IMG/VR virus record: IMGVR_UViG_3300045743_000019
Location: 1 to 30,244 of that record
From: a virus
Strand: one strand, 5' to 3'
Length of the DNA stretch: 30,244 nucleotides
The translations under genes and the position numbers were made by a program. The notes under the pieces were generated by a model. It saw only the letters and a program-made list of their open reading frames with translations, had not been told where the DNA came from and did no database searches. The stretch's first letter is position 1; every line of letters begins with the position of its first letter. This document shows positions 1 to 18,428 of the stretch, piece by piece.

Positions 1-653
1 CCATTCATCAAGAGACGTTCATCATCGTTATAAAGATTACGAACATAATCAAAAATAGCAAGCTCATCGGTTGCTAAGGCTTGCATATCCGAATGAGTTG
101 ATTCGAGGAATCGTGGAATAGTTTGTCTTGCTTTTCCATCGAATCCAAATATATTGTCTGAAACATCGCCCATAATGAACTGCCAGTAGAAGTTGAATGT
201 ACCTTCAATTGGGGAGATTGTTTTGAACTCTGACTTGACAAAGTTAAAGTGCTTACCGGGAACTTGAAGCAAGTCTTTGTCGATGGTACAGATGATTGTT
301 TCATCGGGTTGTTTTGTTTGTTCTATTGCCATCATATCGTCGGCTTCACAGCCGTCGCTTACTTGAGCATTCCAGTTAAGGACAAGATGCTCTTGTACTG
401 CTTGTAGCCATTCTGGTTTAGGCTTATCCTTACGGTTGGCTTTGTACTCAGGATTGTATGTGTACCTAAAGTTATTAGAACCTGTTAGGTATGGGTAGTA
501 GTGTTCAGCATTAGTCTCGTACAAGATGCGATTCATTAGTTCTTCTGTACGAAGAAGGGCGACTTCTACTGGTTCAACTGTAACACCTTGCTTTTGGCAG
601 GATGCTGCACATCGAAACGCCACTATGTCCGCATCAATTAAGGCAGTAGTCAA
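1..653 (-). CDS. 5'-3' exonuclease (FEN/T7 gp6-like), 3' end outside window
   Basis: The minus-strand frame read from a TTG codon gives about 217 residues before the window ends. Visible motifs in order are an N-terminal acidic metal site (ALIDADIVAFR), a YKANR-like segment, CEADDMMA, TIDKDLLQVPG, and the helix-hairpin-helix region MGDVSDNIFGFDGKA. This is the pattern of flap/5'-3' exonucleases such as T7 gp6 and the N-terminal domain of PolI, which remove primers or degrade host DNA. The TTG start is forced by an in-frame TAA just upstream. It overlaps the TGA of the preceding 79-residue gene (TTGA), so translation is probably coupled. An AGCAGG sequence lies upstream as a weak ribosome site. 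It is the last visible gene of the replication operon. Function is confident from the motifs; the C-terminus is not visible. Confidence 0.9.
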   Translation of the reverse strand, partial: MTTALIDADIVAFRCAASCQKQGVTVEPVEVALLRTEELMNRILYETNAEHYYPYLTGSNNFRYTYNPEYKANRKDKPKPEWLQAVQEHLVLNWNAQVSDGCEADDMMAIEQTKQPDETIICTIDKDLLQVPGKHFNFVKSEFKTISPIEGTFNFYWQFIMGDVSDNIFGFDGKARQTIPRFLESTHSDMQALATDELAIFDYVRNLYNDDERLLMN

Positions 654-889
654 TCTAAGTTACCTGCTTTTACTTTGTGAGGGAATTCTTTGTACTCTAG
701 GAAGCAACGAGCGTCACCATCTCTGTAAGCCACCCAAGCAATTTGTGTAGGTGTGTCGTGACATAGATCATGTGATTCTCGTGCTTTAAGTTCCTTGGCA
801 AACTCGGTTTGATAGACCTGACTTGTTACAGCCCAACTACCAAGGAGAAAGCCAAGGACACCTAGAACTTTACTTAATTTCAGCTTCAC
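650..889 (-). CDS. Small protein with N-terminal membrane segment, unknown function
   Basis: A 79-residue frame starts at GTG (889) and overlaps the end of the putative ssDNA-binding gene by 20 bases. It begins with basic residues (MKLKLSK) followed by a hydrophobic stretch of about 18 residues (VLGVLGFLLGSWAVTSQV), so it is either exported or anchored in the inner membrane with a small soluble tail. The tail holds two cysteines and a YRDGDARCFLEYKEF segment. I do not recognise a family. A longer TTG start at 940 is possible but would place charged residues before the hydrophobic segment and increase the overlap. Its TGA overlaps the exonuclease TTG start, so it belongs to the same transcript. 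Confidence 0.6.
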   Translation of the reverse strand: MKLKLSKVLGVLGFLLGSWAVTSQVYQTEFAKELKARESHDLCHDTPTQIAWVAYRDGDARCFLEYKEFPHKVKAGNLD

Positions 890-1418
890 CGAAATCTGGA
901 ATATCACCAAATCCTGTCGGACCCGGATCAACAATACCAAACACGTAAGCCTCGAATTCCTTAGCTACTGCAATTACTTCAGCAGGCTTAGAAGCGGACT
1001 TAGAGCCGATAGCAAGACTAGCGACAGCACTACTAAGACTAGATTGACGGACAATAAGGACTTGCCGCTGCGCTCGTTCTTCGGGGGTTTCATAGGTACT
1101 CCGTGGGGTAGCATTAGCCTTGGCAGCAACGGCTGCTGCAGGGGCATCTGAGTGGCTTGGTGAGCCTGTTGCTGGAGAGCAAGCTGTCCAGTCGTTGTAA
1201 CCCTTATCATTCTTTACTACAGTAACTTCCCAGACAGAACCACCAGAGGCAGTAGACAAGGTTGTAAAACTGGGAGCACCCGCTCCAAATGACATGATCT
1301 TCTTAGATTCAACCTTACCCTGAAATGTAAGGTTCTTGTAGACAACTTCCAGTTCCTGATAAGAACCTCGGGCAGTTGGCTTGGTAGTGGTTGTCGTAGT
1401 GACGATTTGTATTTGCAC
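870..1418 (-). CDS. Putative single-stranded DNA-binding protein
   Basis: A 182-residue frame from a GTG start (MQIQIVTT after start-codon conversion). It has an OB-fold-like N-terminal half with a KPTARGSYQ segment, VVYKNLTFQGKVESKKIMSFG and a VWEVTVVKNDKGYNDW segment. A low-complexity Ala/Ser/Pro linker follows, then a conserved-looking helical part (STYETPEERAQRQVLIVRQSS) and an acidic C-terminal tail (GDIPDFGEAEIK). From memory, proteins of this form sit beside polymerase and exonuclease in many podovirus replication operons and are annotated as ssDNA-binding proteins. That name is inference from form and context. An in-frame ATG at 1475 would add 19 residues; neither start has a strong Shine-Dalgarno. 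The sigma70-type promoter at 1544-1572 lies just upstream. Confidence 0.72.
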   Translation of the reverse strand: MQIQIVTTTTTTKPTARGSYQELEVVYKNLTFQGKVESKKIMSFGAGAPSFTTLSTASGGSVWEVTVVKNDKGYNDWTACSPATGSPSHSDAPAAAVAAKANATPRSTYETPEERAQRQVLIVRQSSLSSAVASLAIGSKSASKPAEVIAVAKEFEAYVFGIVDPGPTGFGDIPDFGEAEIK

Positions 1419-1543
1419 GTTTATTTTCTTTTGTTTAGTGTTAAAGGGGATTGACGTTAGGGTCCCTAAAGGCATAGATGATTTCTGCCTACAGCCGTCT
1501 CTTCCTCGCAGTCAATCAATGCGGAGCTAATTTCTTAACCTAT

Positions 1544-1572
1544 ATTATACCATACCTATAGAAATTATGCAA
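1544..1572 (-). promoter_or_regulatory. sigma70-type promoter, leftward
   Basis: On the minus strand there is TTGCAT, a 17-base spacer, then TATAAT preceded by TGG (extended -10). The -35 box overlaps the last codons of the HNH gene at 1565-1936. The promoter would drive the putative ssDNA-binding gene, the membrane-anchored gene and the exonuclease, leaving a leader of roughly 60-120 bases. The flanking sequence AGGTATGGTATAATATAGG closely matches the promoter at 6615-6643, so the two probably share an origin or a regulator. Confidence 0.75.
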
Positions 1573-1936
1573 GCATTTTGTGCATATTTCTTTCTTCTCT
1601 ACGTTTTAAACTCATGGGATTGTTTTCTCCACTGATCCTACCACGTAAAGATTTATGTTTCATGTTTTCTGCATGAGTTCCTAGAGATAAATGATCTGGA
1701 TTTATGCAACAGGGATTGTCACAAGAATGAAGTACATGCATCCCTTCTGGGATAGCACCCTTGAATACTGAGTAAGCTAGTGTATGAGCAGTATGGTTCT
1801 TACCTTCAAAATGAATACGACCATATCCACAGCCATCTTTACTTCCTGCATATTCCCAACAGTTATTTCTTGAAAATATAAAACGTTCCTGTAACTTTTC
1901 TTTTATCGATATTCCTCGCCGATATGGTAGTCTCAT
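1565..1936 (-). CDS. HNH homing endonuclease (HNH_3-like)
   Basis: The 123-residue protein has the usual form of small phage HNH homing enzymes: NCWEYAG, GYGRIHFEGKNHTAHTLAY, then the core MHVLHSCDNPCCINPDHLSLGTH and a basic C-terminal NUMOD-like tail (ENMKHKSLRGRISGENNPMS). The histidines and cysteines of the core are intact, so it could be active as a nicking or double-strand endonuclease. Its ATG overlaps the TGA of the polymerase C-terminal half (ATGA), placing it directly after the polymerase. It is probably free-standing and mobile rather than needed for replication. It belongs to a different subfamily from the HNH genes at 2638 and 6033. Confidence 0.88.
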   Translation of the reverse strand: MRLPYRRGISIKEKLQERFIFSRNNCWEYAGSKDGCGYGRIHFEGKNHTAHTLAYSVFKGAIPEGMHVLHSCDNPCCINPDHLSLGTHAENMKHKSLRGRISGENNPMSLKRREERNMHKMLA

Positions 1937-2625
1937 TTAAGTTTCTCCATCATTTTCATGTTAGGGCCATATTTAGATTCACAAGCCATTGGACACTTCC
2001 ATTCATATCCGAACATAGCCTTGATGTTCATCGGCAGATCGGCAAATACACTATCAAATATACCAGCCAACTGAGGAAGGTAAGCGACATGAGTGTCGAC
2101 AACGATAGAATCGTGTACAGTAGAAATGAAGTCACAGGGTATTCCAGCTTTCTTAATACGCTTGTATGCAGAGATACGAGCAATGGTCATAACATCAGCA
2201 CCAGTTCCCTGCACAGGGAGATTGACCAGTTGGTTCAAGGGCAGTTTTAATTCCCCCTTGTAGTCCCTTGCCATGTCCAAGTGCCAAGAACGTCCTAGCG
2301 GCCCTGTAATGTCCTTTCCTGAGGATACTAGAGCCATCCACTCCTTATGCTTCTTGTCTAAGGAGGCATACTTCTTGTAGAACTTTTCATTCAATGCATC
2401 CCAGAACTTCGCATCACTGCTAACATGCATAAAATCAGGATCATTAGCAAAAGCCCATCCACTCCCACGGAAGATTGTACGAAAAAGAAAAATCTTAGCG
2501 ATGAGTCGTGAAGGAAGGTCAAAAGCGTGTTGATTGTTTGCATGGGTGTCTTCACCTTTAATGATTTCGTTGATACCTACTTGGTCATTGGATAGCTCTA
2601 ATGCTACCCGCCATTCAAGCTGCAT
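1933..2625 (-). CDS. Family A DNA polymerase, C-terminal (palm/fingers) half of a split gene
   Basis: The open frame starts at ATG 2625 (MQLEWRV) and holds the second half of a PolI-type polymerase. Motif A remainder QLEWRVALELS is followed by the fingers helix (SRLIAKIFLFRTIFRGSG, motif B) and motif C (ISTVHDSIVVD) with its catalytic His-Asp. The motif A aspartate is not in this frame: the residues directly before QLEWR are CVPNM. The missing codons lie upstream from a GTG at 2654 with a strong ribosome site (2663-2669), reading MLLQCDASQ, but they are out of frame because of eight extra bases (2623-2630). The active protein may therefore begin at 2654 and need recoding; otherwise it lacks motif A. 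It pairs with the N-terminal half at 3304-4431. Confidence 0.88.
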   Translation of the reverse strand: MQLEWRVALELSNDQVGINEIIKGEDTHANNQHAFDLPSRLIAKIFLFRTIFRGSGWAFANDPDFMHVSSDAKFWDALNEKFYKKYASLDKKHKEWMALVSSGKDITGPLGRSWHLDMARDYKGELKLPLNQLVNLPVQGTGADVMTIARISAYKRIKKAGIPCDFISTVHDSIVVDTHVAYLPQLAGIFDSVFADLPMNIKAMFGYEWKCPMACESKYGPNMKMMEKLK

Positions 2626-2669
2626 ATTTGGGACGCATCACACTGTAGTAACACGTCCCAAACCTCCTT
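2620..2669 (-). other. Ribosome site, GTG start and displaced motif A codons of split polymerase
   Basis: On the minus strand AAGGAGG (2669-2663) is followed after eight bases by GTG (2654), reading M-L-L-Q-C-D-A-S-Q and ending with CAA (2630-2628). Five bases (ATATG) then precede CAG (2622-2620), where the main polymerase frame continues as Q-L-E-W-R. Reading straight on from CAA reaches a stop within a few codons. Skipping from CAA to the synonymous CAG gives DASQLEWR, the normal motif A. A perfect 8-base inverted repeat, TTGGGACG and CGTCCCAA, brackets the GTG and motif A codons with an 18-base loop. The stop codon of the HNH gene is also inside this loop. Confidence 0.7.
2635..2648 (-). 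repeat. 14-bp direct repeat, copy 2 (CTACAGTGTGATGC)
   Basis: This is identical to the copy at 3102-3115, and the pair flanks the HNH coding sequence. Both copies can be read as codons for L-Q-C-D-A, the heart of polymerase motif A. Similarity continues upstream at the protein level (KMLLQCDA against DVLLQCDA), which suggests a duplicated or rebuilt target site rather than chance. Confidence 0.85.
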
Positions 2670-3105
2670 GGTGTACTTCAAGTATACCTTTGGCAAAAGA
2701 GATAAGCTCTTGCTCTGTAGCATTGTTTTTCATGCGATTTGCTCGGTAAGAGACAACACGAATGTTATCTTTTGTATAACCCTTAGTAGAATCTATTCGA
2801 TCAAGGGACGCAGCAAGCTGCTTATCTCCCATAATAAATGGAGTCTTCATGTAGGGACAAACTTCTGGAATAACAATGTCTGTTAATTCCAAATCAAAGT
2901 CCATATTATCATTCTTTGCCCTAGCCTTAGCATATTTCCATAAATATAATTCAGGGGAGTTTTCTTTACGTTCTCGATGTTTCTTAGCTGCATGTTCAGC
3001 ACGATGTTCTTTATTAGAATCACGCCATGCTTTATTTTGCTCTAGGTAATAGTCTTTACGTTTAAGATAATACTCCCTACGTTTGAGTTGTGTTTCTGTT
3101 AGCAT
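2638..3105 (-). CDS. HNH-type homing endonuclease inserted between polymerase halves
   Basis: A 155-residue protein with a very basic helical N-terminus (KRREYYLKRKDYYLEQNKAW, AEHAAKKHRERKE), then VCPYMKTPFI, AASLDRIDSTKGYTKDNIRVVSYRANRMKNNAT. The SLDRID...KGY..DN..V.S.RAN..KN signature is shared with the gene at 6033-6593 and with other free-standing phage endonucleases. The start ATG overlaps the TGA of the 68-residue gene (TGATG). The stop TGA lies in the 14-bp repeat, and the last codons contain the ribosome site for the polymerase C-terminal half. The HNH frame and the polymerase C-terminal frame are the same, separated only by this TGA. It probably cuts the uninterrupted motif A codons in related phages. 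Confidence 0.85.
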   Translation of the reverse strand: MLTETQLKRREYYLKRKDYYLEQNKAWRDSNKEHRAEHAAKKHRERKENSPELYLWKYAKARAKNDNMDFDLELTDIVIPEVCPYMKTPFIMGDKQLAASLDRIDSTKGYTKDNIRVVSYRANRMKNNATEQELISFAKGILEVHQGGLGRVTTV

Positions 3106-3115
3106 CACACTGTAG
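3102..3115 (-). repeat. 14-bp direct repeat, copy 1 (CTACAGTGTGATGC)
   Basis: The copy lies at the junction of the 68-residue gene and the HNH gene. In the third frame it reads ATG CTC CTA CAG TGT GAT GCT, that is MLLQCDA, and could be a remnant of an earlier N-terminus of the polymerase C-terminal half before the HNH gene arrived. Confidence 0.8.
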
Positions 3116-3311
3116 GAGCATCTTTAGCTCGTAACAATGCAGCTACTGGTCGTTGATCTAGTCGATGGATTTGATCTTGAATCTCCTTGAAGTGTCCGGG
3201 GTAATTATCTCGAAAGTCTGACAAGAGTTTACGACAACCTGAAGTCTCCATAGCAGAGGCGAGGTCAGTGAGAACATCGTTGTATTGTAGTTGTTGTAGT
3301 TCTTTAGTCAT
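3105..3311 (-). CDS. Small hypothetical protein between polymerase halves
   Basis: A 68-residue frame whose ATG overlaps the end of the polymerase N-terminal half (ATGACTAA). Its TGA overlaps the ATG of the HNH gene. The composition is protein-like and helical, with TDLASAMETSGCRKLLSDFR and GHFKEIQDQIHRLDQR segments. No family is recognised. Because it separates two parts of one enzyme, it either arrived with the rearrangement or was the original downstream neighbour of a polymerase gene that has since been reorganised. A seven-base sequence, CTAAAGA, occurs at both ends of the insertion relative to the polymerase codons, which hints at an insertion event. Confidence 0.55.
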   Translation of the reverse strand: MTKELQQLQYNDVLTDLASAMETSGCRKLLSDFRDNYPGHFKEIQDQIHRLDQRPVAALLRAKDAPTV

Positions 3312-4431
3312 TGTATTTTGAGATGAAGATATCTTGCAAGTCAGAGGCAAAGTTCTGAAGGTTAGGTTTAGATGAACTCAACCGTCCAGAGATTGCAGTA
3401 GTCTGATTGAATTGTCCATGCAGTACATTAGGTTCCCAATTCATTTGTTTACGAAGTTTAACTAAGCCATTGTAGTAGGTTCCATTTAGTTTCTCTAGCT
3501 TACTGAGATGCAAGATTTTATCCAGCACACCCTTCTTACCCTTGAGCTTGCGTAAGGTTCCTTCATCTGTTGCATAGTTACCTTCCTTCGCCATCTCAGA
3601 GCCTTTTAAAGGGGCATACAAGCGGGGCAATTGATGTTCTATTACAATGTTCTTGTACTTGGGTTCGTTAGCCCTAGCACCCGTTTTGAAGTAACCAACA
3701 AACTCCTTACCATCCTCTTTAACAAGTCCACCATAAAGAAAGGCAGACAGGTGATCGTTAGACCCAAAATTAATAGGCACATTAGGATAGAAGGCTTTGA
3801 GTTCTGCCTTAAGGGATTCAATCTCACTGTCTAGTTCCTTTGATCGTGTTGTACACAATTCTTCGTCAAACGGTAATCCGTTTTGCTCCATTTCCATCAA
3901 GATCATTAAGTCCTCACACTGTATGCGACACAACTTAATCTCTGCGGGGGTCATCAGTTTGATCTGACTATCGTAACAAAGACGTGTAAGATGAGCATCG
4001 AAGGCAGCATAATCGCTAAGTATCTCCCAAGGTATCTTGTCAGTGTCAATTCCTTTAGACCAGAAATCTTCCTTGACAACATCTCGTTTTGTCGGATGAC
4101 CATATTTAATACACGTTTCATTTAGGCTGGGAAATCTGTTAGTTTGCCTTGAGAGTATGAACTCCGCAATTTGAACGTCCCAAATTTTCTTACCTTGAAA
4201 AGAAATTCCGTGTCGAGTAAGCCAGTGGGCATCGAACTTAAAATTAAACCCAAGAATAAGATCAGACCAAGAGATGAGATTAAGTAACTTAGTAGGAGTT
4301 CTATTTGTCCATTGTACTGCTCCGCAGTCATCGTCGCAATGATGAGAGTAGCATATGAGGCGATTAGCAGAGTCGTAGGGATTTCCCTTGTTTGATATGG
4401 TGGTTTCAACATCTAAGGATAGTAAGTTCAT
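3304..4431 (-). CDS. Family A DNA polymerase, N-terminal half (3'-5' exonuclease and thumb)
   Basis: The 375-residue protein starts MNLLSLDVETT (Exo I, DxE) and continues with LILGFNFKFDAHWL (Exo II) and LSDYAAFDAH (Exo III, YxxxD), so the proofreading domain is intact. The thumb follows, then the start of the palm with SGRLSSSKPNLQNF. The frame stops at ISKYND, just where other family A enzymes continue through a hydrophobic strand into motif A. The next expected residues (V/M-LLQCDAS) are found at 2654, after two other genes. ATG 4431 overlaps the stop of the 66-residue gene upstream (ATGA). With the C-terminal half the total is about 615 residues, a normal size for phage PolA. Confidence 0.92.
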   Translation of the reverse strand: MNLLSLDVETTISNKGNPYDSANRLICYSHHCDDDCGAVQWTNRTPTKLLNLISWSDLILGFNFKFDAHWLTRHGISFQGKKIWDVQIAEFILSRQTNRFPSLNETCIKYGHPTKRDVVKEDFWSKGIDTDKIPWEILSDYAAFDAHLTRLCYDSQIKLMTPAEIKLCRIQCEDLMILMEMEQNGLPFDEELCTTRSKELDSEIESLKAELKAFYPNVPINFGSNDHLSAFLYGGLVKEDGKEFVGYFKTGARANEPKYKNIVIEHQLPRLYAPLKGSEMAKEGNYATDEGTLRKLKGKKGVLDKILHLSKLEKLNGTYYNGLVKLRKQMNWEPNVLHGQFNQTTAISGRLSSSKPNLQNFASDLQDIFISKYND

Positions 4432-4628
4432 TCATTGTAAAAAGTTACATAGTGGGTTCGGAAGACGTAAGCATAAATACCTTTTTCTTTAAACTCCTGT
4501 TCACATGCACCAGCATAGTTGTCTGCTGATTCTTCAGTTAGCCATACAGCAATGGGTACACCTTCTGTTTCCCCATTTACGTGACGCTCAACAATAAATA
4601 CACCTGTCTTACTCTTTGGCAATTTCAT
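4428..4628 (-). CDS. Small hypothetical protein upstream of polymerase
   Basis: A 66-residue frame with ATG at 4628, overlapping the end of the 39-residue gene and overlapping the polymerase ATG at its own stop. The sequence reads like a compact alpha/beta protein (GVFIVERHVNG, PIAVWLTEESADNYAGACEQEF, IYAYVFRTHYVTFYNE) and resembles small phage proteins in which an ESAD..A helix sits between strands. No function is recognised. Position in the replication operon suggests an accessory role. Confidence 0.7.
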   Translation of the reverse strand: MKLPKSKTGVFIVERHVNGETEGVPIAVWLTEESADNYAGACEQEFKEKGIYAYVFRTHYVTFYNE

Positions 4629-4728
4629 TCATAATCCAATGTTGTAGTATGGAGATGGCAGCAATCTGCCCACCTCTTCGTAATCTCTCAATTATCGCAT
4701 CAAACAAAAGTGACTCTGATTCTGTCAC
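4609..4728 (-). CDS. Very small protein after helicase gene
   Basis: A 39-residue frame begins at a GTG that overlaps the helicase TGA (GTGA) and runs 20 bases into the next gene. It reads TESESLLFDAIIERLRRGG followed by IAAISILQHWIMNEIAKE: two amphipathic helices joined by a glycine turn. Tight overlaps on both sides and a protein-like composition support translation. There is no clear Shine-Dalgarno apart from coupling. Function is unknown. Confidence 0.5.
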   Translation of the reverse strand: MTESESLLFDAIIERLRRGGQIAAISILQHWIMNEIAKE

Positions 4729-5972
4729 ACAATGTCTTCGTAGCGTGCTACGTCAGCACGAATCAACACTTCACGCTTGCCATGTCGTAGAGTTGGATCA
4801 GTATCTTCATCTCCTGCCAATTTGTTTTTACTTGCGTTTAGGTAGCGAAGATTTTCATAACCAACATCTGCAACTTTTCCAATACCAACAATCCAATCCG
4901 CCTCTGCTTGCTTGGCTGTCTTAGCATTGGCTACATTACCCATCGTAAGCCACTTCTGGCCTTCTCCAGAGCCATCAGCTTGGCATACCCCTATGACAGC
5001 ACAATCATGCTCCTTAGCAAGCTCTCGTGCCCATTGGTACATAGCACCAAGCTTCAAGTCCTCACGGTCAGCTTCAAATCCCACAATCTTATCAATCTGA
5101 TCGAAGATCAACAAGCTGGGCTTATACTGCTTGCAGATACGTTCCACCATTGTTTTGCTGATAGACCCAGTAGGATTGAGTATCATGTGCTTACCCTTGG
5201 TCTTCTTCATGTAAGCATTACGTGCTGCCGTTGGATTGCTATTGATCGCCGCGAGGCTTGCTCCAAGCGATGCTTGATAACAGCGGATTTTAACCTTGGA
5301 ACCTTTCTCCTCGTTATTAAGCCAAACGATTGGACCCGACTCGTCTGTAAGTTGCTCAGCCATAAAGGTGGTTTCACTAGCCAGAAATGTTGTCTTCCCT
5401 GTTTCTGGACGGGCAAATATGAACCCAAAGTCACCCCCACGCAAAGACCCCAGCATTTGATTGAGAGTATTGAGACGCCAGCGTAGACCCGGTTTGCGAA
5501 ACGTCTCAACCAGAAGTTGCTCAATGTCGTCAGAAACAAACTCGAATTCCTCCTCATGTACCTTAGTACTTTTCTCTGCTGAGAAAGCGTTAAGCAACTC
5601 GTTAAACTTGTCCTTCGATAGTTTGCCCTCGGTAACATCATACGCTGCAAGAGAAATCTCCTTAAGAAGTTTATTCTCAACAAAGGATTGAAGCAAGATT
5701 GCTGTTGACTGTGTTGATACTTCCAACTTGTCAAGGGTTTCAATGACACCCTCGTAATACGCTACATCCTTATGCTTGTGAGCGAACAGGATGTTAGAGA
5801 GATCAGCAACAGTTAGGTCAATCTTGTCTATATTGCTTTGATGGAAGCTGTCAAGTACAGAATAGACAGCATGTAATTCCTTAGGTAAGTCTTTAACATT
5901 CAACTTATCTTTCCATCTATTCCATTCTTCATAAGACAAGAATGCCTTTATAATACTTAACTCGTATTTAAT
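4725..5972 (-). CDS. DnaB-like replicative helicase, probable AUU start
   Basis: The RecA-like ATPase carries Walker A (ARPETGKTTF, about residues 187-195), a WLNNEE segment, Walker B (SLLIFDQID, about 287-294) and a later GVCQADGSGEG element. This is the DnaB/T7 gp4 helicase fold, preceded by a helical N-terminal domain. The first conventional start in frame is TTG 5939, but the frame is open further upstream. An ATT at 5972 sits six bases after TAAGGAG (5985-5979) and gives MKYELSIIKAFLSYEEW, the kind of N-terminus I recall for phage DnaB proteins. TTG 5939 has only AAGG. I therefore favour AUU initiation. The gene follows an HNH insertion and a leader with competing hairpins. Confidence 0.88.
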   Translation of the reverse strand: MKYELSIIKAFLSYEEWNRWKDKLNVKDLPKELHAVYSVLDSFHQSNIDKIDLTVADLSNILFAHKHKDVAYYEGVIETLDKLEVSTQSTAILLQSFVENKLLKEISLAAYDVTEGKLSKDKFNELLNAFSAEKSTKVHEEEFEFVSDDIEQLLVETFRKPGLRWRLNTLNQMLGSLRGGDFGFIFARPETGKTTFLASETTFMAEQLTDESGPIVWLNNEEKGSKVKIRCYQASLGASLAAINSNPTAARNAYMKKTKGKHMILNPTGSISKTMVERICKQYKPSLLIFDQIDKIVGFEADREDLKLGAMYQWARELAKEHDCAVIGVCQADGSGEGQKWLTMGNVANAKTAKQAEADWIVGIGKVADVGYENLRYLNASKNKLAGDEDTDPTLRHGKREVLIRADVARYEDIV

Positions 5973-5978
5973 ATAATA

Positions 5979-6026
5979 CTCCTTATTTAACTATATACTT
6001 ATTGTTAATATATAGTTTAACAATAA
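5979..6026 (-). promoter_or_regulatory. Helicase leader with two competing hairpins and strong ribosome site
   Basis: On the minus strand TTATTGTTAA and TTAACAATAA form a perfect 10-base stem with loop ACTATATA. That loop is itself complementary to TATATAGT, which starts one base after the stem, so the two pairings exclude each other (AACTATATA with TATATAGTT, nine pairs). The second stem ends a few bases before TAAGGAG, the ribosome site for the AUU start. The hairpins lack a T-tract, so they are not an ordinary terminator. They could modulate translation or act as a processing site. Confidence 0.55.
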
Positions 6027-6032
6027 AAGACT

Positions 6033-6593
6033 TTACTTGTCAAGTTCAATAGTAACTAAGCTGTCAAGATAGTCAGCTATCTGTCTATGTTCTTGTGAAG
6101 TTCCATTGTTCTTAATCCTGTTTGCTCTCCATGAGATGATGTGTACATTGCCTTTAACATAACCAAGTCCAGCATCTATCTGGTCAAAGCTGGGACTATT
6201 TTCCTGTACACAATGAGCAAAATAATCTAGCTGTATTCCTAAGATTGGGCACACATCGTTCCAAACAAGATCAGAAAAATCTATGTCCCATGTATATCCA
6301 ATACGAATAGCATTCGCTTTCTTTGCACGAAACTTCTCACGTTTCTTTTCATACAACTCGGAGTCATCCTTATCTCCCCATTTCTTGTAATAGGCATCAG
6401 CTTTATTCTGCCTATTGACAATCAATCCACAGGTTGATCCCCATTCCGGAATGAATTTATCCACCACTTGTTTCATACGCTGACGAGAAATACCATATCT
6501 ACGGGCAAGTTCTGCCATAGTTATACCAGTTTCTCCGTATTGTTTGATGTGGATGATTTCATTTTCCCAAGTATAAGTCTTTTTAAACGGCAT
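6033..6593 (-). CDS. HNH-type homing endonuclease with N-terminal helix-turn-helix
   Basis: A 186-residue protein inserted between primase and helicase. It opens with a helix-turn-helix (TMAELARRYGISRQRMKQVV), has a basic middle (KKREKFRAKKANAIRIGY), and ends with VCPILGIQLDY, SPSFDQIDAGLGYVKGNV and SWRANRIKNNGTSQE. The last part is the same endonuclease domain as in the gene at 2638-3105. The start ATG follows AAGGA closely. It has its own near-consensus promoter at 6615-6643, so it can be expressed independently of the operon. It is likely a free-standing homing gene, and the HTH may contribute target binding. Confidence 0.85.
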   Translation of the reverse strand: MPFKKTYTWENEIIHIKQYGETGITMAELARRYGISRQRMKQVVDKFIPEWGSTCGLIVNRQNKADAYYKKWGDKDDSELYEKKREKFRAKKANAIRIGYTWDIDFSDLVWNDVCPILGIQLDYFAHCVQENSPSFDQIDAGLGYVKGNVHIISWRANRIKNNGTSQEHRQIADYLDSLVTIELDK

Positions 6594-6614
6594 ATATTCC
6601 TTTACAAAACACCT

Positions 6615-6643
6615 ATTATATCATACCTAGAACAGAATGTCAA
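6615..6643 (-). promoter_or_regulatory. Consensus sigma70 promoter, leftward
   Basis: The minus strand shows TTGACA, exactly 17 bases, then TATAAT preceded by TGA (extended -10). The -35 starts just after the primase stop codon. Transcription would start about 15 bases before the HNH ATG and could also feed the helicase and polymerase genes downstream. It is the best match to consensus in the window. Confidence 0.85.
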
Positions 6644-6644
6644 G

Positions 6645-7412
6645 CTATTTCTGCAAGAACATCTCAATTTCTTTGTCAGTGTAACACTTGGGGTCAAGTT
6701 CCGAGTAAACGGTGTTAGCTGACAAACCAACCCACTGACACTTCTCGGCTATCTCCCTTGCTTCACGCCATTTGTCACGATCTAGCCAAATGGTGATGAA
6801 CTCGTAAGGCTCCGTGCCGTCGCTCTGGCGGCCCTTCAGAGCGATTATTTTGTGAGCTGGTACGTTGGTGCCAAGTGCAGGCATTGCATCGCACTGAGAG
6901 GCTATACGGATGGCTGACAGGGCATCTTCAGTGATTACCAACCGCCTTCTATGCTGCCCAGTGGTACTTTTGTAGATCGGAGAAACTTCGCTGGTGGAAC
7001 CTTGGTTAAAGTACTTGGCTTTAGCTGCCCGGTCAGGGTCAAAGTTACGGGCTTGTATGCAACGGGTTTGGCCTTCCTTGTCTTTGTATTCATAGATGAG
7101 TTGGTTGAAGTATAGGGAGTACTGGAGGCCACGTTGTATAGCTGTTGGAATTGATACATCAAACTTTGCGAGGTACTCGACACAGGCTGCTGAAAAATCA
7201 TGTCCGCAGTCTCTTGGGGTGTGTAATGCTGGGTCGCTGCACTCTGTGTCGTCCAAGTGTTCATTGAGCCGTTCAGTGACGAATCCTGAAAGGCTACCTC
7301 TGCCTGACTTACGGCAACCGAAGCAGAACCACCCACCATCGGAGTAGTTGGCCCTGTTGTCTCTGGAACCACAGTAGTTGCAAGGCCCGTGGCCGACGAA
7401 TTTGTTGGCAAT
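6645..7412 (-). CDS. DNA primase (zinc finger plus TOPRIM), probable AUU start
   Basis: The frame encodes a four-cysteine zinc finger (C11-x2-C14 and C30-x2-C33, in GPCNYCGSRDNR and WFCFGCRKS), a linker, and a TOPRIM domain with LVITEDALSAIRIA (Glu 162) and IWLDRDKW (Asp 211, Asp 213). This is the order in T7 gp4 and DnaG primases; no helicase domain is attached. The first ATG/GTG/TTG in frame (TTG 7256) would remove the zinc finger. The only plausible start is ATT at 7412, seven bases after TAAGGAG (7426-7420), giving MANKFVGHGPC. The stop codon of the upstream zinc-ribbon gene forms the first bases of that ribosome site. Primase identity is firm; AUU use is a strong inference. Confidence 0.9.
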   Translation of the reverse strand: MANKFVGHGPCNYCGSRDNRANYSDGGWFCFGCRKSGRGSLSGFVTERLNEHLDDTECSDPALHTPRDCGHDFSAACVEYLAKFDVSIPTAIQRGLQYSLYFNQLIYEYKDKEGQTRCIQARNFDPDRAAKAKYFNQGSTSEVSPIYKSTTGQHRRRLVITEDALSAIRIASQCDAMPALGTNVPAHKIIALKGRQSDGTEPYEFITIWLDRDKWREAREIAEKCQWVGLSANTVYSELDPKCYTDKEIEMFLQK

Positions 7413-7423
7413 TTTAGTTCTCC

Positions 7424-7600
7424 TTAGTTTGATAGACCGTCTTCGTCGTCACCTTCTTCATACTCACTCTCGGTGTACTTCACATCATCAGCAATAGTGT
7501 TGAAGCATTTGTTACACAAGTCCACATAGGTATTGGAATTGGTAAACTTACGAGTGGATTCCTGAGTAGTCAAGATAACATTACAAGCATTACAGCGCAT
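7424..7600 (-). CDS. Small zinc-ribbon protein
   Basis: A 58-residue protein with two CxxC pairs (MRCNACNVIL and LCNKC) spaced as in a zinc ribbon, then an acidic C-terminal tail (ESEYEEGDDEDG). ATG 7600 lies inside the end of the preceding gene, with AAGGA about ten bases upstream. Its TAA is part of the primase ribosome site. Similar small zinc proteins occur next to phage replication genes, where they may bind nucleic acid or a partner enzyme; the exact role is not known. Confidence 0.8.
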   Translation of the reverse strand: MRCNACNVILTTQESTRKFTNSNTYVDLCNKCFNTIADDVKYTESEYEEGDDEDGLSN

Positions 7601-8285
7601 TTTCTTCTTCCTTTTGGTTAATTTGTTCAGCAGTCATATTCTCACACCACGCCATTACACCACAATTATGCACTGTAGTGCCACTATAGTTGTCCAACTC
7701 ACTGTTGTAACCTGCACTATAGTACGTCCAGTACTTCTGGAACTCCTCTGGTACATCAAACTTCCAGCTCTTAGCAAGAGTAAAGCCACGGTCATAGATC
7801 GCACGGTCTGCTTGAGCGTGTTTGCTAGTCAAAGCATCCTCAAAATTCTTGAACTTCTTGTCACCATTCGAGATACGGATGATGTAAGACACCAGAGAGA
7901 TGAGATATGTCTGGTTGAAGTAGTAACGTGGGACGAACATCAGGATGTTACCATCCACAACCTCCATTGTCAAGGGGAAGTCAGGCTTTTCAGCATTAAT
8001 ACAACATGCAATATTGTGCATAAACACATCAATGTCAGTGACATGGTACAAGCGTAGCCACACACCATCGTCATTTAGCTTCATGTCATGGTTGTTAAGA
8101 CCGTAAGCTATGACATGTTTACCATGATAACGTGCTACCACATCATTCAGGTAATCCTTACACATGAACCGTCCTGTCTGTGGCAGGAATGTATCACCAT
8201 CACGGTAGTACACTTGCCAACGCAGCGAGTTAGACTGAGGTGCTTCGCTGTAATGATACTGTGGGTCAGCTTCAAACTTATACAT
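7590..8285 (-). CDS. Hypothetical protein of the ligase cassette
   Basis: A 231-residue protein from ATG 8285, which overlaps the ATP-grasp stop by eight bases and has AAGGA upstream. Longer starts would read through the ATP-grasp gene in another frame and are rejected. The protein is rich in aromatic residues, with LRWQVYYRDGD, FLPQTGRFMCKDYLND, MKLNDDGVWLRLYHV and KYWTYYSAGYNSELDNYSG. Cysteines occur at INAEK-adjacent CC and near the C-terminus. I do not recognise the family. Its tight placement between the ATP-grasp ligase and the replication genes suggests a part in the same pathway or a virion/host target of it. Confidence 0.8.
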   Translation of the reverse strand: MYKFEADPQYHYSEAPQSNSLRWQVYYRDGDTFLPQTGRFMCKDYLNDVVARYHGKHVIAYGLNNHDMKLNDDGVWLRLYHVTDIDVFMHNIACCINAEKPDFPLTMEVVDGNILMFVPRYYFNQTYLISLVSYIIRISNGDKKFKNFEDALTSKHAQADRAIYDRGFTLAKSWKFDVPEEFQKYWTYYSAGYNSELDNYSGTTVHNCGVMAWCENMTAEQINQKEEENAL

Positions 8286-8973
8286 TTTGGGTGATTCCTT
8301 GGACGTATTTTTCAATGTTGCTACCAGTGATGCCGGGCGCACTGTTAACTTCAATGATGAAAAGGTCGTCGTTCCTCTCATTATATCCAATATCGACGCC
8401 ACGGAAGTCCGACGTGCTAACTTTTGCCGCTGCAAGAGCAAGTTCACGTAGTCCGGCTGGCTCGTTCTCCACCTGTTGACAGAATATGTAGCCATTTGCA
8501 AGGTTCCTTACTTTAGTATCACGTTGATCGGTCCAGCCTGTCTTCTTACGCTTCTCCACCACAGACACCACAGTGTCCTTGAATACATGCACACGAAACT
8601 CACGTTTCTTCTTCTTGTACATTGTGTACACAGGACAGGGCTGGAAATCTTCCATAGTTTCCATGATGACAATGCCCTTACCGCAACTGCTGTTCAGGTA
8701 CTTACGACCAAACACTGTCTTACCACTAGCAATCCACGCTTGGGCCATCTCAGGTGACTGTGTGAACTCCAAGGATGATAGACCTTGTGACGCGAACCAA
8801 ACATATTGAGCAATCTTATTCACAGAATGCCCATAGCGGTACTGAATACGGCGTGTAGACAGCTTTGTAGTGCGAAGCACCCTATGCCCTAGCCGTTGCG
8901 TTAACGCACCAGCAAGGAGCTTTAGAGAGGCAGAGAACCGTGTAGATTCAGTGCAGAGCAAGGACAGTTTCAT
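8278..8973 (-). CDS. ATP-grasp ligase (RimK-like)
   Basis: A 231-residue protein with the ATP-grasp core: TVFGRKYLNSSCGKGIVIM (about residues 86-104, the nucleotide-binding lysine and glycine-rich loop), REFRVHVF (124-131), and FIIEVNSAPGITGSN (205-219), whose Glu and Asn ligate magnesium. RimK and related enzymes form an amide bond from a carboxylate and an amine at the cost of ATP, through an acyl-phosphate. It overlaps the amidotransferase gene upstream by 26 bases and the next gene by eight. The protein is short for the superfamily, with a reduced N-terminal domain, as in other phage versions. The substrate cannot be read from sequence; a peptide or protein terminus is likely. Confidence 0.88.
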   Translation of the reverse strand: MKLSLLCTESTRFSASLKLLAGALTQRLGHRVLRTTKLSTRRIQYRYGHSVNKIAQYVWFASQGLSSLEFTQSPEMAQAWIASGKTVFGRKYLNSSCGKGIVIMETMEDFQPCPVYTMYKKKKREFRVHVFKDTVVSVVEKRKKTGWTDQRDTKVRNLANGYIFCQQVENEPAGLRELALAAAKVSTSDFRGVDIGYNERNDDLFIIEVNSAPGITGSNIEKYVQGITQNV

Positions 8974-10114
8974 GCTTAACTCGCTTAGATGGGGTTACTT
9001 TCTTTAGATCACCTAGCCGGATTGTAACCATGCCAGTAGCTTTGTCATATTCCATGTCCGTTACACGGCCATAATACAGACAATTCAAGAAGGATTCCTT
9101 AGGATGCAATTCATTCAGATCAAACTCTGCTTGAACCACATGGTCAAAGGTAAACTCTTCAATGTCTCCCATGAGGAGAACATCAGATGCACCTTGTGCT
9201 ATTGTTTTAGGAAAATCTTTCTCGATGAAGTCATCAGCCCAGAAGTCTGTTAACGCACCGAACCAACGCTTTTTTGCTGCTTTGAAAGCGTTCTTGCTCA
9301 TCCGATTAGTCCCACCACGTTTGCCCTGTCCAGCCACCGTGGAGGCGGTCTTCCAATTGCCAGTTACCGTATTGGTAACTGGAATAGCTTTTTTTGGCAT
9401 GTAACTGACAACCTCCACTTTGTTAGTGTCAAGATCAATCTTGTACAGAGTGTTCTCTTTCACAACAACAGGCTCGTGGCCTTTAAGTGTTACACCATTA
9501 CGCCCAAGTATCCAGTACAACAAGCCCATCTCAGATGCCCAGAAGAACCCTTCAGGAGTGTCTACAAAGCTCATAGGACGCTGATCGTTGCGGAGTAGAT
9601 AGACCTGATGGTTATTCTGACTATACGCAGCAATGGCGTATGCACCCTTGACCTTACCGATAGCTTCCTCAAAGGCAGCCAAGTCCCAATCACCATTGAG
9701 TACTGGCTCAAGGTGAATGGCAAGAGCTTCACTATCCACCACAGTATCAGCTAACTCCTTGTGATTGGTTAACGTACCATTATGTACCATAGCAAACTCA
9801 CCCTTGACGACGAATGGGTGAGCATTCTCGTCAGAGCCAATGCCAATAGTCTTCTTACGATTGTGTCCAATCAAAGCCTTACCGCGAGGGTACATAGCCT
9901 TACCAAGGTCAGACATTTGAATCTGATCTAGTACATAAGGAGCAGCATAGCCTTCCTTCATGATGCCGAAACCAGCAGTGTTCTCCACCATAATTACACC
10001 AGTGGAGTCATCTCCACGCAGCGTATCACAGAACAACATTTGATAGAAAGACTCCTCAGTCTTCTTATCAAACCCAAAGTTACCACGAGGTACAACCCCA
10101 ACAATTCCACACAT
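8948..10114 (-). CDS. Class II (Ntn) glutamine amidotransferase
   Basis: A 388-residue protein beginning MCGIVGVV; after Met removal Cys2 is the N-terminal nucleophile that releases ammonia from glutamine. Further family motifs are TLRGDDSTGV, ALIGHNRKKT and FAMVHNGTLTNHKEL, with the oxyanion Asn-Gly. The N-terminal 200 residues match the GlmS/PurF/AsnB-type glutaminase domain. The C-terminal 180 residues contain no sugar-isomerase or synthetase motifs and may bind a partner. ATG overlaps the preceding stop (TAATG) and follows GGTGATC, a good ribosome site. It probably supplies ammonia to a ligase of the same cassette, or cleaves a glutamine-like amide. Confidence 0.92.
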   Translation of the reverse strand: MCGIVGVVPRGNFGFDKKTEESFYQMLFCDTLRGDDSTGVIMVENTAGFGIMKEGYAAPYVLDQIQMSDLGKAMYPRGKALIGHNRKKTIGIGSDENAHPFVVKGEFAMVHNGTLTNHKELADTVVDSEALAIHLEPVLNGDWDLAAFEEAIGKVKGAYAIAAYSQNNHQVYLLRNDQRPMSFVDTPEGFFWASEMGLLYWILGRNGVTLKGHEPVVVKENTLYKIDLDTNKVEVVSYMPKKAIPVTNTVTGNWKTASTVAGQGKRGGTNRMSKNAFKAAKKRWFGALTDFWADDFIEKDFPKTIAQGASDVLLMGDIEEFTFDHVVQAEFDLNELHPKESFLNCLYYGRVTDMEYDKATGMVTIRLGDLKKVTPSKRVKHETVLALH

Positions 10115-10881
10115 TAGATCACCGCCAGTTTCAGGTCAAGGATTTGGTTGGTCATAAGACTGCGAACCAAGGTATAGTCATTGCTCAAACGAGAGCAGCC
10201 AAAAATCTTACCAAAGAGCATCTTGATGTTGTCCTCTTGTAAGAGGGTTGAATCAAGTGGAGCTTCCTTGGCAGTAGCCAACAAGTTACGGATGATGAGC
10301 AGCCATTCATCCATCAACACATCATCAGCATGACCATGCATATGACGGAACTCAATCGTACCCTGCTTGGTCAGGGGCTTGAGATTAAGTGCCGTGTACT
10401 TGTGCCAACGACTAATCATGTTGGATATACTACCACTATAAATACTAGGCAGATAAGTCTCTGTCAAGGGTGTGCAGTGAATGTTATCACGACGATCAGG
10501 AGCACACATCAAGAAGAAGGCTTCCTCAAACAAGGCATACAACCATACAGTATCCCGTACTTCCTTGAGCTTCATGTTAGCGCAGTTAGCATGGACATGA
10601 ATGGATGTACGCTGAGAGAACGGGTCGAATGTGCCTGTGCTGATAGTCCCATGCAACTTCTTGAACATAGTAGAAGCAACAGGGATGGACACAGGATTAC
10701 TGATGTACTCGTGTCCGTTGTTACGCAACGAACCATCAGTAGTTACGCGCCAGCCTAATTGCTCTGCTCGTCCATGATCGGTGATGGCCTCAATCTCACA
10801 CTCGATGCCAACGAATTGCCCAGCGGTAGGATCACGCAGTGCATCAATGTGTATCTCACAACCCAATTCATCCCAAATCAT
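10114..10881 (-). CDS. Amidoligase (glutamine synthetase-like fold)
   Basis: A 255-residue protein with FVGIECEIEAI (metal/ATP-binding glutamates), TTDGSLRNNGHEYISNP, RTSIHVHANCAN and GTIEFRHMHGHAD in the order found in the putative amidoligase family of Iyer and colleagues (amidoligase_2 type). These enzymes are predicted to activate a carboxylate with ATP and join it to an amine. ATGA overlap with the upstream gene and GAGGTG seven bases upstream support the start. Neighbouring amidotransferases and ATP-grasp enzyme fit a multi-step ligation pathway. Substrate unknown. Confidence 0.85.
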   Translation of the reverse strand: MIWDELGCEIHIDALRDPTAGQFVGIECEIEAITDHGRAEQLGWRVTTDGSLRNNGHEYISNPVSIPVASTMFKKLHGTISTGTFDPFSQRTSIHVHANCANMKLKEVRDTVWLYALFEEAFFLMCAPDRRDNIHCTPLTETYLPSIYSGSISNMISRWHKYTALNLKPLTKQGTIEFRHMHGHADDVLMDEWLLIIRNLLATAKEAPLDSTLLQEDNIKMLFGKIFGCSRLSNDYTLVRSLMTNQILDLKLAVI

Positions 10882-11474
10882 ACTAACACCTCATAATGTT
10901 CATTGTGGTCAACCATGTGCTGCATAATTTCCGGCAGGAAAATCTTATGCATCATACTGATACGCTTGGTAGTGTAATCAAACATAGCAATAGTTCGATT
11001 GTCAATCAGAATTTTACCTGACCGTAGATAAGACATACGTGGACTCAACGCAATGGCCTTGGTCTTAGCCTTGGTGTTGAACGCATTGCTGAACGATGAG
11101 TAGCTAGGCTTACCGACAAAAGCCTTGAGAGCAGGGAATCCAACATCAACTGCTGTACCTGTAGCTACATTGGTAATCATCGTGTTGTCAGAGCACAGAC
11201 CACGACGATACTGCCGAGCAGGAATACGCTGCAACAGATAGACAGAATCTTTCCACTGAAACGTTGCCTTGTGTGGCAGGATGAAGTTCACAGTGTAAGG
11301 AGCAGCATCACTGAGATACATCTCAAACGCTGTGTTGTCCTCGTCAACACCACTGATACCATCAGGACGTACCTGATGAATCATGAACAGCTTGTCACCA
11401 AACTCAGAGAACTTTACATAAGTACCCTCATAGTACTTCTGTATGTCTCGCCAATTGCTTGACGTAAAATCCAT
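10878..11474 (-). CDS. Hypothetical protein between two ligase genes
   Basis: A 198-residue protein starting MDFTSSNW, preceded by GGAGGTGATC, which matches the 16S 3' end over ten bases, the strongest ribosome site in the window. Its stop overlaps the amidoligase ATG. The N-terminal half looks beta-rich (GTYVKFSEFGDKLFMIHQV, FEMYLSDAAPYTVNF). The C-terminal half has a KTKAIALSPRMSYLRSGK segment and ends MQHMVDHNEHYEVLV. I recognise no catalytic motif. High predicted translation and its place between the two ligases suggest it could be the substrate or carrier of the modification, but this is inference. Confidence 0.82.
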   Translation of the reverse strand: MDFTSSNWRDIQKYYEGTYVKFSEFGDKLFMIHQVRPDGISGVDEDNTAFEMYLSDAAPYTVNFILPHKATFQWKDSVYLLQRIPARQYRRGLCSDNTMITNVATGTAVDVGFPALKAFVGKPSYSSFSNAFNTKAKTKAIALSPRMSYLRSGKILIDNRTIAMFDYTTKRISMMHKIFLPEIMQHMVDHNEHYEVLV

Positions 11475-12230
11475 TTAGATCACCTCCAAGTTAAACTCAT
11501 CGACCAACGAACGAGCAACAGATTTGTTGTTGTTGTTGATGGCTTCAAGAATGGACTCAGCATACACAGACACATCCCACGTACCAGCAGTAGCCTCAGC
11601 ACGAGTGGTGTTACGGAACACCCAATCAATCAAGCGATCTTCAAAAATCCAGAAGTTCGACAGAGTACGGTACTCCACACCATAACTCTTTACTCGGTGT
11701 GCTCCGGCTTTTCCATACAGTTGTTTACGATCTTCACCACTATCCATAAGTACACTAGCCACGCCAAGAAACAAATCACAGTTGCGTACCACATCGGTGG
11801 CATCTTTGGCAGTTTCGATGTGAATATGGCCGCCAGCACTACGCATAAAAGGATGCGGAGGCTGTGGTTTCTGGTTAGTTTTGTTAGTCCAAGCATCATA
11901 GTCAGGCTCACATCCAAATATATGGGCAGCAGGGTGCTGCATTTGATCTTCAGGGAAGACAATACAAGACAACTTACTGAATGACAAGTTTGGCAGATAC
12001 TCCAGACTCTTAGCCATCACAGCGTTGATAGACCCTATGAGTTCTTCACTGGTGGATGCTGGGGGAATGCCATACTCAAGGGATACGTTGTCCTCTTGCA
12101 GTGTATAGCCAGCAGGCATGTCAGGAATCTGCAAAGGATTCCACTTATCAGCCATGATGTAACCAATGGCGCTGATGGGTTTACCATTAACGTCAACCAA
12201 AAAAGTCTCGGGGTCGCTACCAATACGCAT
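11475..12230 (-). CDS. phiEco32-type COOH-NH2 ligase (amidoligase)
   Basis: A 251-residue protein opening MRIGSDPETFLVD, with LQEDNVSLEYGIPP (about 45-57), SAGGHIHIET (131-140) and YGVEYRTLSNFW (183-194). The GSDPE opening, EDN..E.. motif, GGHIH and EYRTLSNFW are the hallmarks of the phage COOH-NH2 ligase family with a glutamine synthetase-like fold, first noted in phage phiEco32. It is predicted to couple a carboxylate to an amine using ATP. AGGAG lies seven bases before ATG. Together with the gene at 10114 it gives two distinct amidoligases in one cassette. Confidence 0.88.
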   Translation of the reverse strand: MRIGSDPETFLVDVNGKPISAIGYIMADKWNPLQIPDMPAGYTLQEDNVSLEYGIPPASTSEELIGSINAVMAKSLEYLPNLSFSKLSCIVFPEDQMQHPAAHIFGCEPDYDAWTNKTNQKPQPPHPFMRSAGGHIHIETAKDATDVVRNCDLFLGVASVLMDSGEDRKQLYGKAGAHRVKSYGVEYRTLSNFWIFEDRLIDWVFRNTTRAEATAGTWDVSVYAESILEAINNNNKSVARSLVDEFNLEVI

Positions 12231-17867: not shown

Positions 17868-18428
17868 GTGGCTTATAAACCTGTAACAAAAGATCGTTCT
17901 ACCTTAGCTGAGACAAACTTGCGATGGTCGGAGAAGCAACGAATGGAAGCTGTGAACAGCTACCTCCTACTCGGTAACCTCGCGCTCACAGCGCGTATAC
18001 TGAACATCCCAGAGATTACTCTTCGTGTTTGGAAAGCTCAAACATGGTGGAAAGATGCTGTTCTGGAGATTAAGAGTTCTGAGAAGGTTCAACTGTCCAC
18101 TCGAATTCGTAAGCTTGTAGACGGAGCCTTGGCTGTAGTCGAAGATCGTTTGACCAACGGAGACTTTCAGTTTGACCAGAAAACTGGTGTAGTTGTACGC
18201 AAGCCGGTTAACATGAAAGATGCTCACAAGGTTGCCATTGACATGGCAGACAAGCATGAACAACTTGAACGCTCTGAACGTCCTGAACAGACAGAGGAAC
18301 ATGTAGAGGATAAACTCCTGAAGCTTGCTGAGAAGTTTGCTGACATGGCTACAAAGAAGATTGAACAAAACAATAATGCATCCCGTACTGTTGACGTTGA
18401 GGATGTAGAAGATAACACAGCTCGGTAG
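17868..18428 (+). CDS. Terminase small subunit
   Basis: A 186-residue protein starting at GTG after AAGGGG. It carries an N-terminal helix-turn-helix (LTARILNIPEITLRVWKAQTW), a helical oligomerisation region (LSTRIRKLVDGALAVVEDRL, KDAHKVAIDMADKHEQLER) and an acidic tail with a KLLKLAEKFADMATKKIEQN helix. This is the plan of small terminase subunits that recognise packaging sites and feed DNA to the large subunit. It is followed by a small HNH gene and the large subunit. Its last ten bases, including the TAG, are part of the tRNA-Trp gene. Confidence 0.85.
   Translation: MAYKPVTKDRSTLAETNLRWSEKQRMEAVNSYLLLGNLALTARILNIPEITLRVWKAQTWWKDAVLEIKSSEKVQLSTRIRKLVDGALAVVEDRLTNGDFQFDQKTGVVVRKPVNMKDAHKVAIDMADKHEQLERSERPEQTEEHVEDKLLKLAEKFADMATKKIEQNNNASRTVDVEDVEDNTAR

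Follow-up and report, generated by a model that had tools for sequence, protein, structure and literature searches.

A split phage DNA polymerase gene interrupted in motif A at a candidate recoding site beside an endonuclease gene

Results

Organisation of the polymerase locus

The window, by which we mean the whole 30,244-nucleotide stretch analysed, is phage DNA in which a family A DNA polymerase is encoded by two genes, polN and polC. Both are on the minus strand, where polN is followed by a small ORF, an endonuclease gene, the start of polC and the body of polC (Table 1). The PF00476 domain is present in both polymerase halves. The small ORF had no PHROG match up to an E value of 0.01, and the endonuclease matched no Pfam family up to 0.1. 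The Shine-Dalgarno (SD) site and the 5' hairpin arm at the polC start are encoded within the 3' end of the endonuclease gene.

Table 1. Coordinates of features at the split polymerase locus of the window.
Feature	Position	Strand	Basis
polN, family A polymerase, N-terminal half with the 3'-5' exonuclease and the beginning of the polymerase domain	3304..4431	-	PF00476 1.5e-18, PF01612 1.8e-6; phrog_9556, phrog_17
Small ORF between polN and polC, putative	3105..3314	-	tblastn homologues at the same place in many relatives
5' remnant of original polC start, ATGCTCCTACAGTGTGATGC = MLLQCDA, severed by endonuclease insertion	3102..3121	-	sequence
Free-standing HNH / Endo VII-type endonuclease gene	2638..3108	-	phrog_3322 endonuclease 7.5e-36; phrog_1035 endonuclease VII 1.8e-18
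Strong Shine-Dalgarno site AAGGAGG	2663..2669	-	sequence
Hairpin around start codon: 5' arm 2663-2648, loop, 3' arm 2641-2626; 16 pairs, 4 G-U	2626..2663	-	predicted fold
Re-made polC start, GTG..GATGCGTCCCAA = MLLQCDASQ; proposed take-off codon CAA 2630-2628	2628..2654	-	
8-base displacement: gap ATATG 2627-2623 and proposed landing codon CAG 2622-2620	2620..2627	-	
Remainder of polC, downstream motifs intact; CTT GAA TGG from 2619	1933..2625	-	PF00476 9.5e-16; alignment

The polymerase is in two pieces across the whole clade: polN and polC are separate genes in relatives, often with the small ORF between them. The split is old in the clade and the break in motif A is not. In intact relatives polC typically begins M-L-x-Q-x-D-A-S-Q-L-E-W-R, often overlapping the stop codon of the small ORF. 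The polymerase is annotated as a single gene in HTVC115P and HTVC033P. Of the four closest named phage records compared, three (QDWS535, MW202796, MEP401) are intact; the fourth, MW202697 (L003), has a +1 change in an A run. A near-DNA search of phages with window positions 1-12000 gave no match.

Other genes of the window were also recorded. A second HNH gene (1565-1936, minus strand; PF13392, 7.9e-13) directly follows polC and overlaps its stop codon; homologues are found just after polC in several relatives. A third endonuclease-like gene (6033-6593, minus strand) is located between primase-like and helicase genes. It has weak HTH matches under Pfam cut-offs, and its nuclease part is 35% identical to the polC-side endonuclease. 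A phage tRNA-Trp (CCA) gene is at 18419-18493 on the plus strand, and one also occurs in the L037 record. Between 8278 and 12906 (minus strand) a run of genes resembles, by eye, ATP-grasp, class II glutamine amidotransferase, amidoligase-like and class I glutamine amidotransferase genes.

Interruption of motif A

A preliminary description of this DNA had placed a strong ribosome binding site, a GTG start and the first codons of polC ahead of a break in motif A. All are present: AAGGAGG is followed by GTG TTA CTA CAG TGT GAT GCG TCC CAA. The interruption is also confirmed, in that GTG..GAT GCG TCC CAA is separated by ATATG from CAG CTT GAA TGG. Unshifted reading stops early (MLLQCDASQICSLNGG-stop) and joining CAA to CAG yields the motif exactly (MLLQCDASQLEWR / MLLQCDASQLEWRV). 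The motif A Asp was identified by aligning cdasqlewrv, from the intact relative L007, with ldysqielrv of a Taq Pol I structure. Judged from sequence, the window polymerase would have this Asp only if recoded. The stem reported around the site exists, although it is not the 8 bp described; it has 16 pairs with a 9-bp Watson-Crick core. The codon that would occupy the A-site after CAA is AUA, not a stop. Since AUA accounts for 51 of the 348 Ile codons in 20 window ORFs it is not rare, and an argument from codon rarity is weak.

The hairpin could instead bridge the SD site to a later start, an arrangement described for T4 genes 25 and 38, such that polC begins MQLEWRV and either lacks the Asp or obtains it elsewhere. 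A polC-frame ATG does follow the window hairpin directly (2625-2623), and an excerpt of PMC3014915 describes hairpins that improve initiation in T4. However, initiation at this ATG gives a product without the catalytic Asp, and only in the window, of the 19 broken loci described below, does the gap contain a possible start (ATG, GTG or TTG) in frame with polC. We regard such bridging as highly unlikely, and a start at MQLEWRV was rejected because the Asp is lost.

Another IMG/VR record, 52,603 bases long, contains the same sequence and mismatches the window at 1 of its 30,244 bases; the two samples are perhaps not independent. An assembly error, offered earlier as an alternative, is contradicted by repetition of the same break across records; a one-off error was rejected on the second record and on this repetition. 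At its end the 52.6 kb record (that of L006) carries a second copy of 127 bases from its own interior (window 1-127; L371 12477-12603), perhaps an assembly overlap or a repeat.

Recurrence of the break in relatives

Among the matches listed, 162 loci were examined, from which copies with the same 300 nt of polC (such as L085 and L086) had been removed. They comprise 130 intact loci, 19 broken loci, with the window record counted once, and 13 unclassified loci. The last were set aside with motif A absent from, or beyond the reach of, the classifier; four of them (L038, L040, L041 and L043) read as intact in separate inspection. At 95% identity there are 110 intact and 19 broken clusters. The proportion broken, 19 of 149 classifiable loci among the matches listed, is not a natural frequency.

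In the 19 broken loci the indels, from -1 to +10 nt, all fall within the same few codons and make up 15 alleles. With the take-off codon before the oblique, these are CAA/AUAUGCAG (window), CUU/U, CUU/UA, CUC/UA, CUU/UAGCCC, CUU/UAGCUU, CUU/UAGACCC, CUU/UCUU, CUG/UAACUG, CAG/UAGCGG, GAA/AUACGAC, GAA/UAGCUACGUA, GAA/UAGCUACGAU, AAA/A and a one-base deletion after AAG. In all 19 one defined jump restores motif A with no residue gained or lost. Breakage of 19 loci at one place, each restorable by one jump, is more than chance. The length of the hop varies among relatives. A pattern scan returned 13 stretches, of which three were polymerases already in the set (L272, L279, L283) and ten were one unrelated repeated sequence. 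A scan of genome contigs for such sites found none, and the five stretches from a further scan were all on contigs already in the set.

A stop codon directly follows the take-off codon at 14 of the 19 loci, the exceptions being the window, L034, L310, L322 and L003. Five loci (L025, L035, L078, L081, L314) are in frame (+6) with one stop and the other 14 are out of frame; an in-frame insertion without a stop was found in none of the 149 classified loci. Stop-codon readthrough, or a variant genetic code, might account for the five in-frame cases. Readthrough would, however, add two residues in motif A and leave the 14 out-of-frame loci unexplained. The scanned stretches of seven broken records contain only tRNA-Trp(CCA) and tRNA-Leu(UAA), with no suppressor tRNA among them, and an explanation by suppressor tRNA was rejected for those stretches. 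In addition, polN of L035 itself ends at TAG. We consider readthrough or a variant code scarcely credible.

The stop that closes the segment at 14 of the 19 loci, together with the two-piece nature of the polymerase in the clade, would also suit a short ORF (e.g. MLIQCDASQL-stop) whose product is either a separate peptide completing a polymerase of three pieces or a leader peptide that regulates polC. Against this, the gap provides no start codon for the second piece at 18 of the 19 loci, and five loci lack the junction stop. Stable binding of a 10-residue piece carrying the central strand and the catalytic Asp is also unlikely. We therefore give the separate peptide very little weight.

The take-off and landing codons are synonymous, not identical, in the window (CAA/CAG) and identical in L003, L081, L314 and L322. 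The match is poor for CUU to CCC in L035, L078 and L109, CUU to UUA in L014, L048 and L084, and GAA to GUA in L029. The close relatives L314 and L322 have CUG-UAA-CUG and CUU-U-CUU, respectively; thus, take-off and landing codons change together. Like codons at the two positions could also be produced by simple tandem duplication. The changes in L003 and L310 are of one base in A runs and may be sequencing errors; both loci have a strong SD site and L310 also has the endonuclease.

Ribosome binding site and hairpin

A strong SD site is present at 16 of 19 broken loci compared with 3 of 127 intact loci. The mean minimum free energy around the start codon is -15.6 kcal/mol for 15 broken loci and -7.9 kcal/mol for 50 intact loci. 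In synonymous-codon shuffles, 8 of the 15 broken loci gave p<0.05 singly. We also permuted hairpin arms between loci. For 15 loci the summed duplex energy was -221.7 against a permuted mean of -153.4, and none of 20,000 permutations was as low, which was likewise so for a thinned set of 12 loci. With all 19 broken loci z was -6.8, and no permutation in 20,000 was as good as each arm with its own partner. Intact controls, in 40 draws of 19 loci, gave a mean z of +0.5 (lowest -1.3). These hairpin tests are to be read with shared ancestry in mind, the loci not being independent, and the tests and windows were framed after the first ten loci.

Hairpins are weak in four loci (L081, L310, L314 and L322, the last three among the four loci added last). 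These loci jump between like codons: CUU/CUU in L081, AAG/AAA in L310, CUG/CUG in L314 and CUU/CUU in L322. A trade-off between hairpin strength and codon likeness is only a suggestion because the window combines a strong hairpin with synonymous codons. Around position 3980 of L007, the window's nearest relative among the matches listed, motif A is intact, yet a strong SD site (AAAGGAGGAGG) precedes a GTG start, as in broken loci. L007 is perhaps in a reverted or pre-cassette state.

Endonuclease association and signs of mobility

An endonuclease gene is directly upstream in 9 of the 19 broken loci (a remnant in L025) and in 0 of 130 intact loci. The queries for this count were taken from broken loci; a motif scan independent of them found the endonuclease in 7 of 19 broken and 0 of 130 intact loci. 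Of four endonucleases scanned against PHROG, those of the window, L078 and L314 matched phrog_3322 and endonuclease VII, and that of L034 a different HNH family. Six were scanned against Pfam with no nuclease match. At the remaining ten broken loci no endonuclease gene is adjacent. Related genes are found elsewhere in the L037, L086 and L109 records, which have none adjacent, and none was found in the L027 record.

A remnant of the old polC start is present in seven of the nine endonuclease-bearing loci (the window record, L034, L035, L266, L310, L314 and L322). It was found in none of the other ten broken loci, bar unlike chance strings in L029 and L048. These remnants, in the window MLLQCDA just before the endonuclease, indicate that an endonuclease gene landed in the motif A codons together with a replacement start.

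Near-identical cassettes occur in diverged surroundings. In L027 and L031 a 49-nt cassette is 96% identical; ungapped identity is only 20% in the next 40 nt upstream, and 65% of third positions agree downstream. L014 and L048 are 94% identical over 50 nt; downstream of these, identity is 93% for the first 60 nt and then drops. L029 and L037 are 85% identical over 61 nt. A quick polC tree was built from 147 proteins, of which 105 were kept (L048 and thinned intact rows were left out). Its 18 broken rows need 17 changes, 12 of them forced by starred branches, and shuffled labels need 16.9 on average. Broken copies are scattered over the tree, no more clustered than shuffled labels. The polC proteins of L321 and L314 are very similar, without and with the cassette respectively, and this sequence contrast suggests recent gain or loss of the cassette.

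Further insertions are present in polN near residue 356 (L007, L008, L009, L029) and in polC near residues 55 (L038, L040, L041, L043) and 148 (L042, L048). Several have group I intron-like 3' ends by eye, and one in L029 holds an HNH-like ORF.

Removal of the eight bases from RNA had been raised as an alternative to bypass. No Rfam intron match was obtained in the window, nor in positions 1500-4500 at a lax threshold. Furthermore, no second copy of the start segment was found upstream of the ten broken loci that lack a neighbouring endonuclease, or of L025 and L078 (1500 nt searched; 314 nt in L031 and 866 nt in L025). An intron at these loci could therefore be no longer than the 1-10 nt gap, and we know of no intron of 1-10 nt. 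A group I intron was rejected on the lack of an Rfam match and on the gap (10 nt or less), too short for a catalytic core. In favour of splicing by a group I or other intron are the intron-like 3' ends, seen by eye, at other polymerase sites (L038, L040, L041, L043 and polN of L029). In addition, an excerpt of PMC10580990 has the MEP401 authors suggesting an intron for their split gene. We judge splicing at the break very improbable.

Selection on the broken polymerase

The indels sit where such an endonuclease is expected to cut, and nick repair could leave small insertions. The breaks might hence be end-joining scars in a dead gene, with host or other polymerases used instead. The inactive polymerase proposed earlier is, however, contradicted by dN/dS values of 0.10-0.13 in broken-broken pairs with measurable dS (4 of 9 pairs; the rest were saturated), and a dead gene was rejected on this basis. 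Two pairs have a common break and dS near 1.2: L014/L048, with dN/dS of 0.11 over 141 codons, and L027/L031, with dN/dS of 0.13. Values were 0.09-0.14 in three of four broken-intact pairs and 0.05-0.25 in five of seven intact-intact pairs, dS being saturated in the rest. Codons for D-A-S/A/K-Q-L upstream of the gap vary synonymously with residues largely kept, including in the 14 loci where the two parts are out of frame. The VHD residues of motif C do not vary in three alignments, which between them cover ten broken rows. The lack of stop-free in-frame insertions among the 149 classified loci, and the enrichment of stops, SD sites and hairpins in broken loci, also argue against a dead gene.

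A second replicative polymerase was looked for. PF00136 (DNA_pol_B) and PF07733 (DNA_pol3_alpha) were found in 0 of 8 broken records, and PF00476 detected only pieces of the split polymerase in the records searched, which are possibly incomplete. On this search a second polymerase was rejected. Overall, a dead gene appears unlikely.

Discussion

We consider it probable that the broken loci carry a mobile homing-endonuclease cassette in which an indel disrupts the enzyme's target and is compensated by programmed frameshifting or hopping, with a logic like that of T4 gene 60. The short programmed bypass proposed for the window in the preliminary description gains support from comparative data: 18 other loci have indels at the same codons, each restorable by one jump, the polymerase is under purifying selection, and hairpin arms match their own partners. 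The proposed tie to the neighbouring endonuclease is supported likewise, as endonuclease and break co-occur across loci. Here, we infer homing, recoding and its efficiency, and immunity to the endonuclease.

In the mechanism that we propose, a free-standing Endo VII/HNH homing endonuclease gene would insert at the polC start, in the motif A codons. Its 3' end would bring a replacement start consisting of a strong SD site, a hairpin and the codons M-L-x-x-x-D-A-S-Q-(L)-(E). At the junction with the rest of polC an indel of -1 to +10 nt would probably spoil the enzyme's target in the donor genome. Homing endonucleases commonly tolerate silent target changes; if this one does, an indel rather than silent changes would be needed. 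The ribosome would load at the strong SD site, open the hairpin and make 8-11 residues, a peptide too short for a nascent-peptide signal of the gene 60 type. It would then halt at the take-off codon, usually with a stop in the A-site, and slip or hop into the polC frame. The motor in most loci may be the hairpin, re-forming behind the ribosome to draw the mRNA back and the ribosome forward, as proposed for gene 60; in other loci, the P-site tRNA may act as the guide by pairing again with a like codon. Landing might be set by codon likeness where present (L314, L322, L081 and the window), and elsewhere perhaps by the hairpin and SD distance. The step in the window would be a hop from CAA over ATATG to CAG.

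The chances seem about even that these loci represent a family of mobile recoding cassettes in phage polymerases, in which the motif indel blocks the nuclease, an SD-hairpin-stop device hops -1 to +10 nt, and hairpin and SD site, rather than codon matching alone, set the point of resumption. There is a fair chance that this is a distinct class of mobile recoding cassette. We found no report of such sites in DNA polymerases, as judged by titles and abstract openings. To our knowledge, hardly any programmed bypass in phages other than that of T4 gene 60 is well documented, so the rules of bypass rest on one example. The polC loci offer 15 natural alleles that differ in length within a single gene, and intact relatives serve as controls; the close pair L314 and L322 shows the hop changing between near relatives. 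If our reading is correct, a selfish nuclease can make an essential catalytic site dependent on recoding, and a phage polymerase gene that looks broken should not be written off as an error. A device familiar chiefly from phage T4 would then probably be recurrent, and spreading, in uncultured phages.

By family similarity and position, the window endonuclease appears to be of the free-standing HNH/Endo VII homing type, with cutting putative. F-CphI, whose target is psbA, and related phage homing endonucleases with the Endo VII motif are likewise small and free-standing, a likeness that is by PHROG matches and description only. According to an excerpt of PMC10580990, the split polymerase of OM43 phages MEP401/402 has the same arrangement of polN, small ORF and polC. 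Unlike the window, MEP401 keeps motif A whole, and its annotation shows no endonuclease between the two polymerase genes.

Some polC sites resemble other recoding signals. L027 and L031 share CUU UGA, and the needed +1 outcome, with the frameshift site of RF2 (prfB). However, the RF2 SD site is 3 nt from the shift site, whereas in L027 and L031 it is ~30 nt upstream, before the hairpin, and UGA is followed by G; the two loci are without the RF2-type SD spacing. Synthetic stop-hops in E. coli, with matched codons around a stop, have the same layout as L314 (CUG UAA CUG) and L081 (CUU UAG CUU), although those are constructs and the polC sites are natural. An excerpt of a 2016 review (PMC5009743) states that no natural occurrences of in-frame stop-hopping were known.

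The closest parallel in logic is T4 gene 60. A mobA/bypass cassette was reportedly described by Bonocora and colleagues in 2011. As excerpts of PMC5009743 and PMC3014915 set out, gene 60, beside mobA (topoisomerase genes 39/60), is likewise a case of a homing endonuclease splitting a conserved replication gene, and nuclease protection is the proposed reason for the bypass, as we suggest for polC. In both systems two parts of one conserved protein are set apart, with homology on either side of the gap in polC, extra bases lie near the junction and a 5' stem-loop lies behind the take-off site (in the window, the predicted 16-pair hairpin). Re-formation of the hairpin behind the ribosome is proposed to push the gene 60 ribosome forward, and a 5' stem-loop is reported to stimulate +1 shifts in constructs (both from excerpts of PMC5009743). 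A stop follows take-off in gene 60 and in 14 of 19 polC loci, but not in the window (AUA). The gene 60 gap is 50 nt, compared with shifts of -1 to +10 nt. The excerpted PMC5009743 places a nascent-peptide signal 25-30 residues before take-off, whereas only 9 residues precede the gap in the window. The polC cassettes also differ in having the start codon inside the hairpin, and in the gene and the nuclease involved. The polC system would thus work like gene 60, but we do not class it as a member, since it has no nascent-peptide signal and, in the window, no stop after take-off. Finally, whereas gene 60 is described as apparently unique in an excerpt of PMC3014915, polC presents many alleles over a broad clade.
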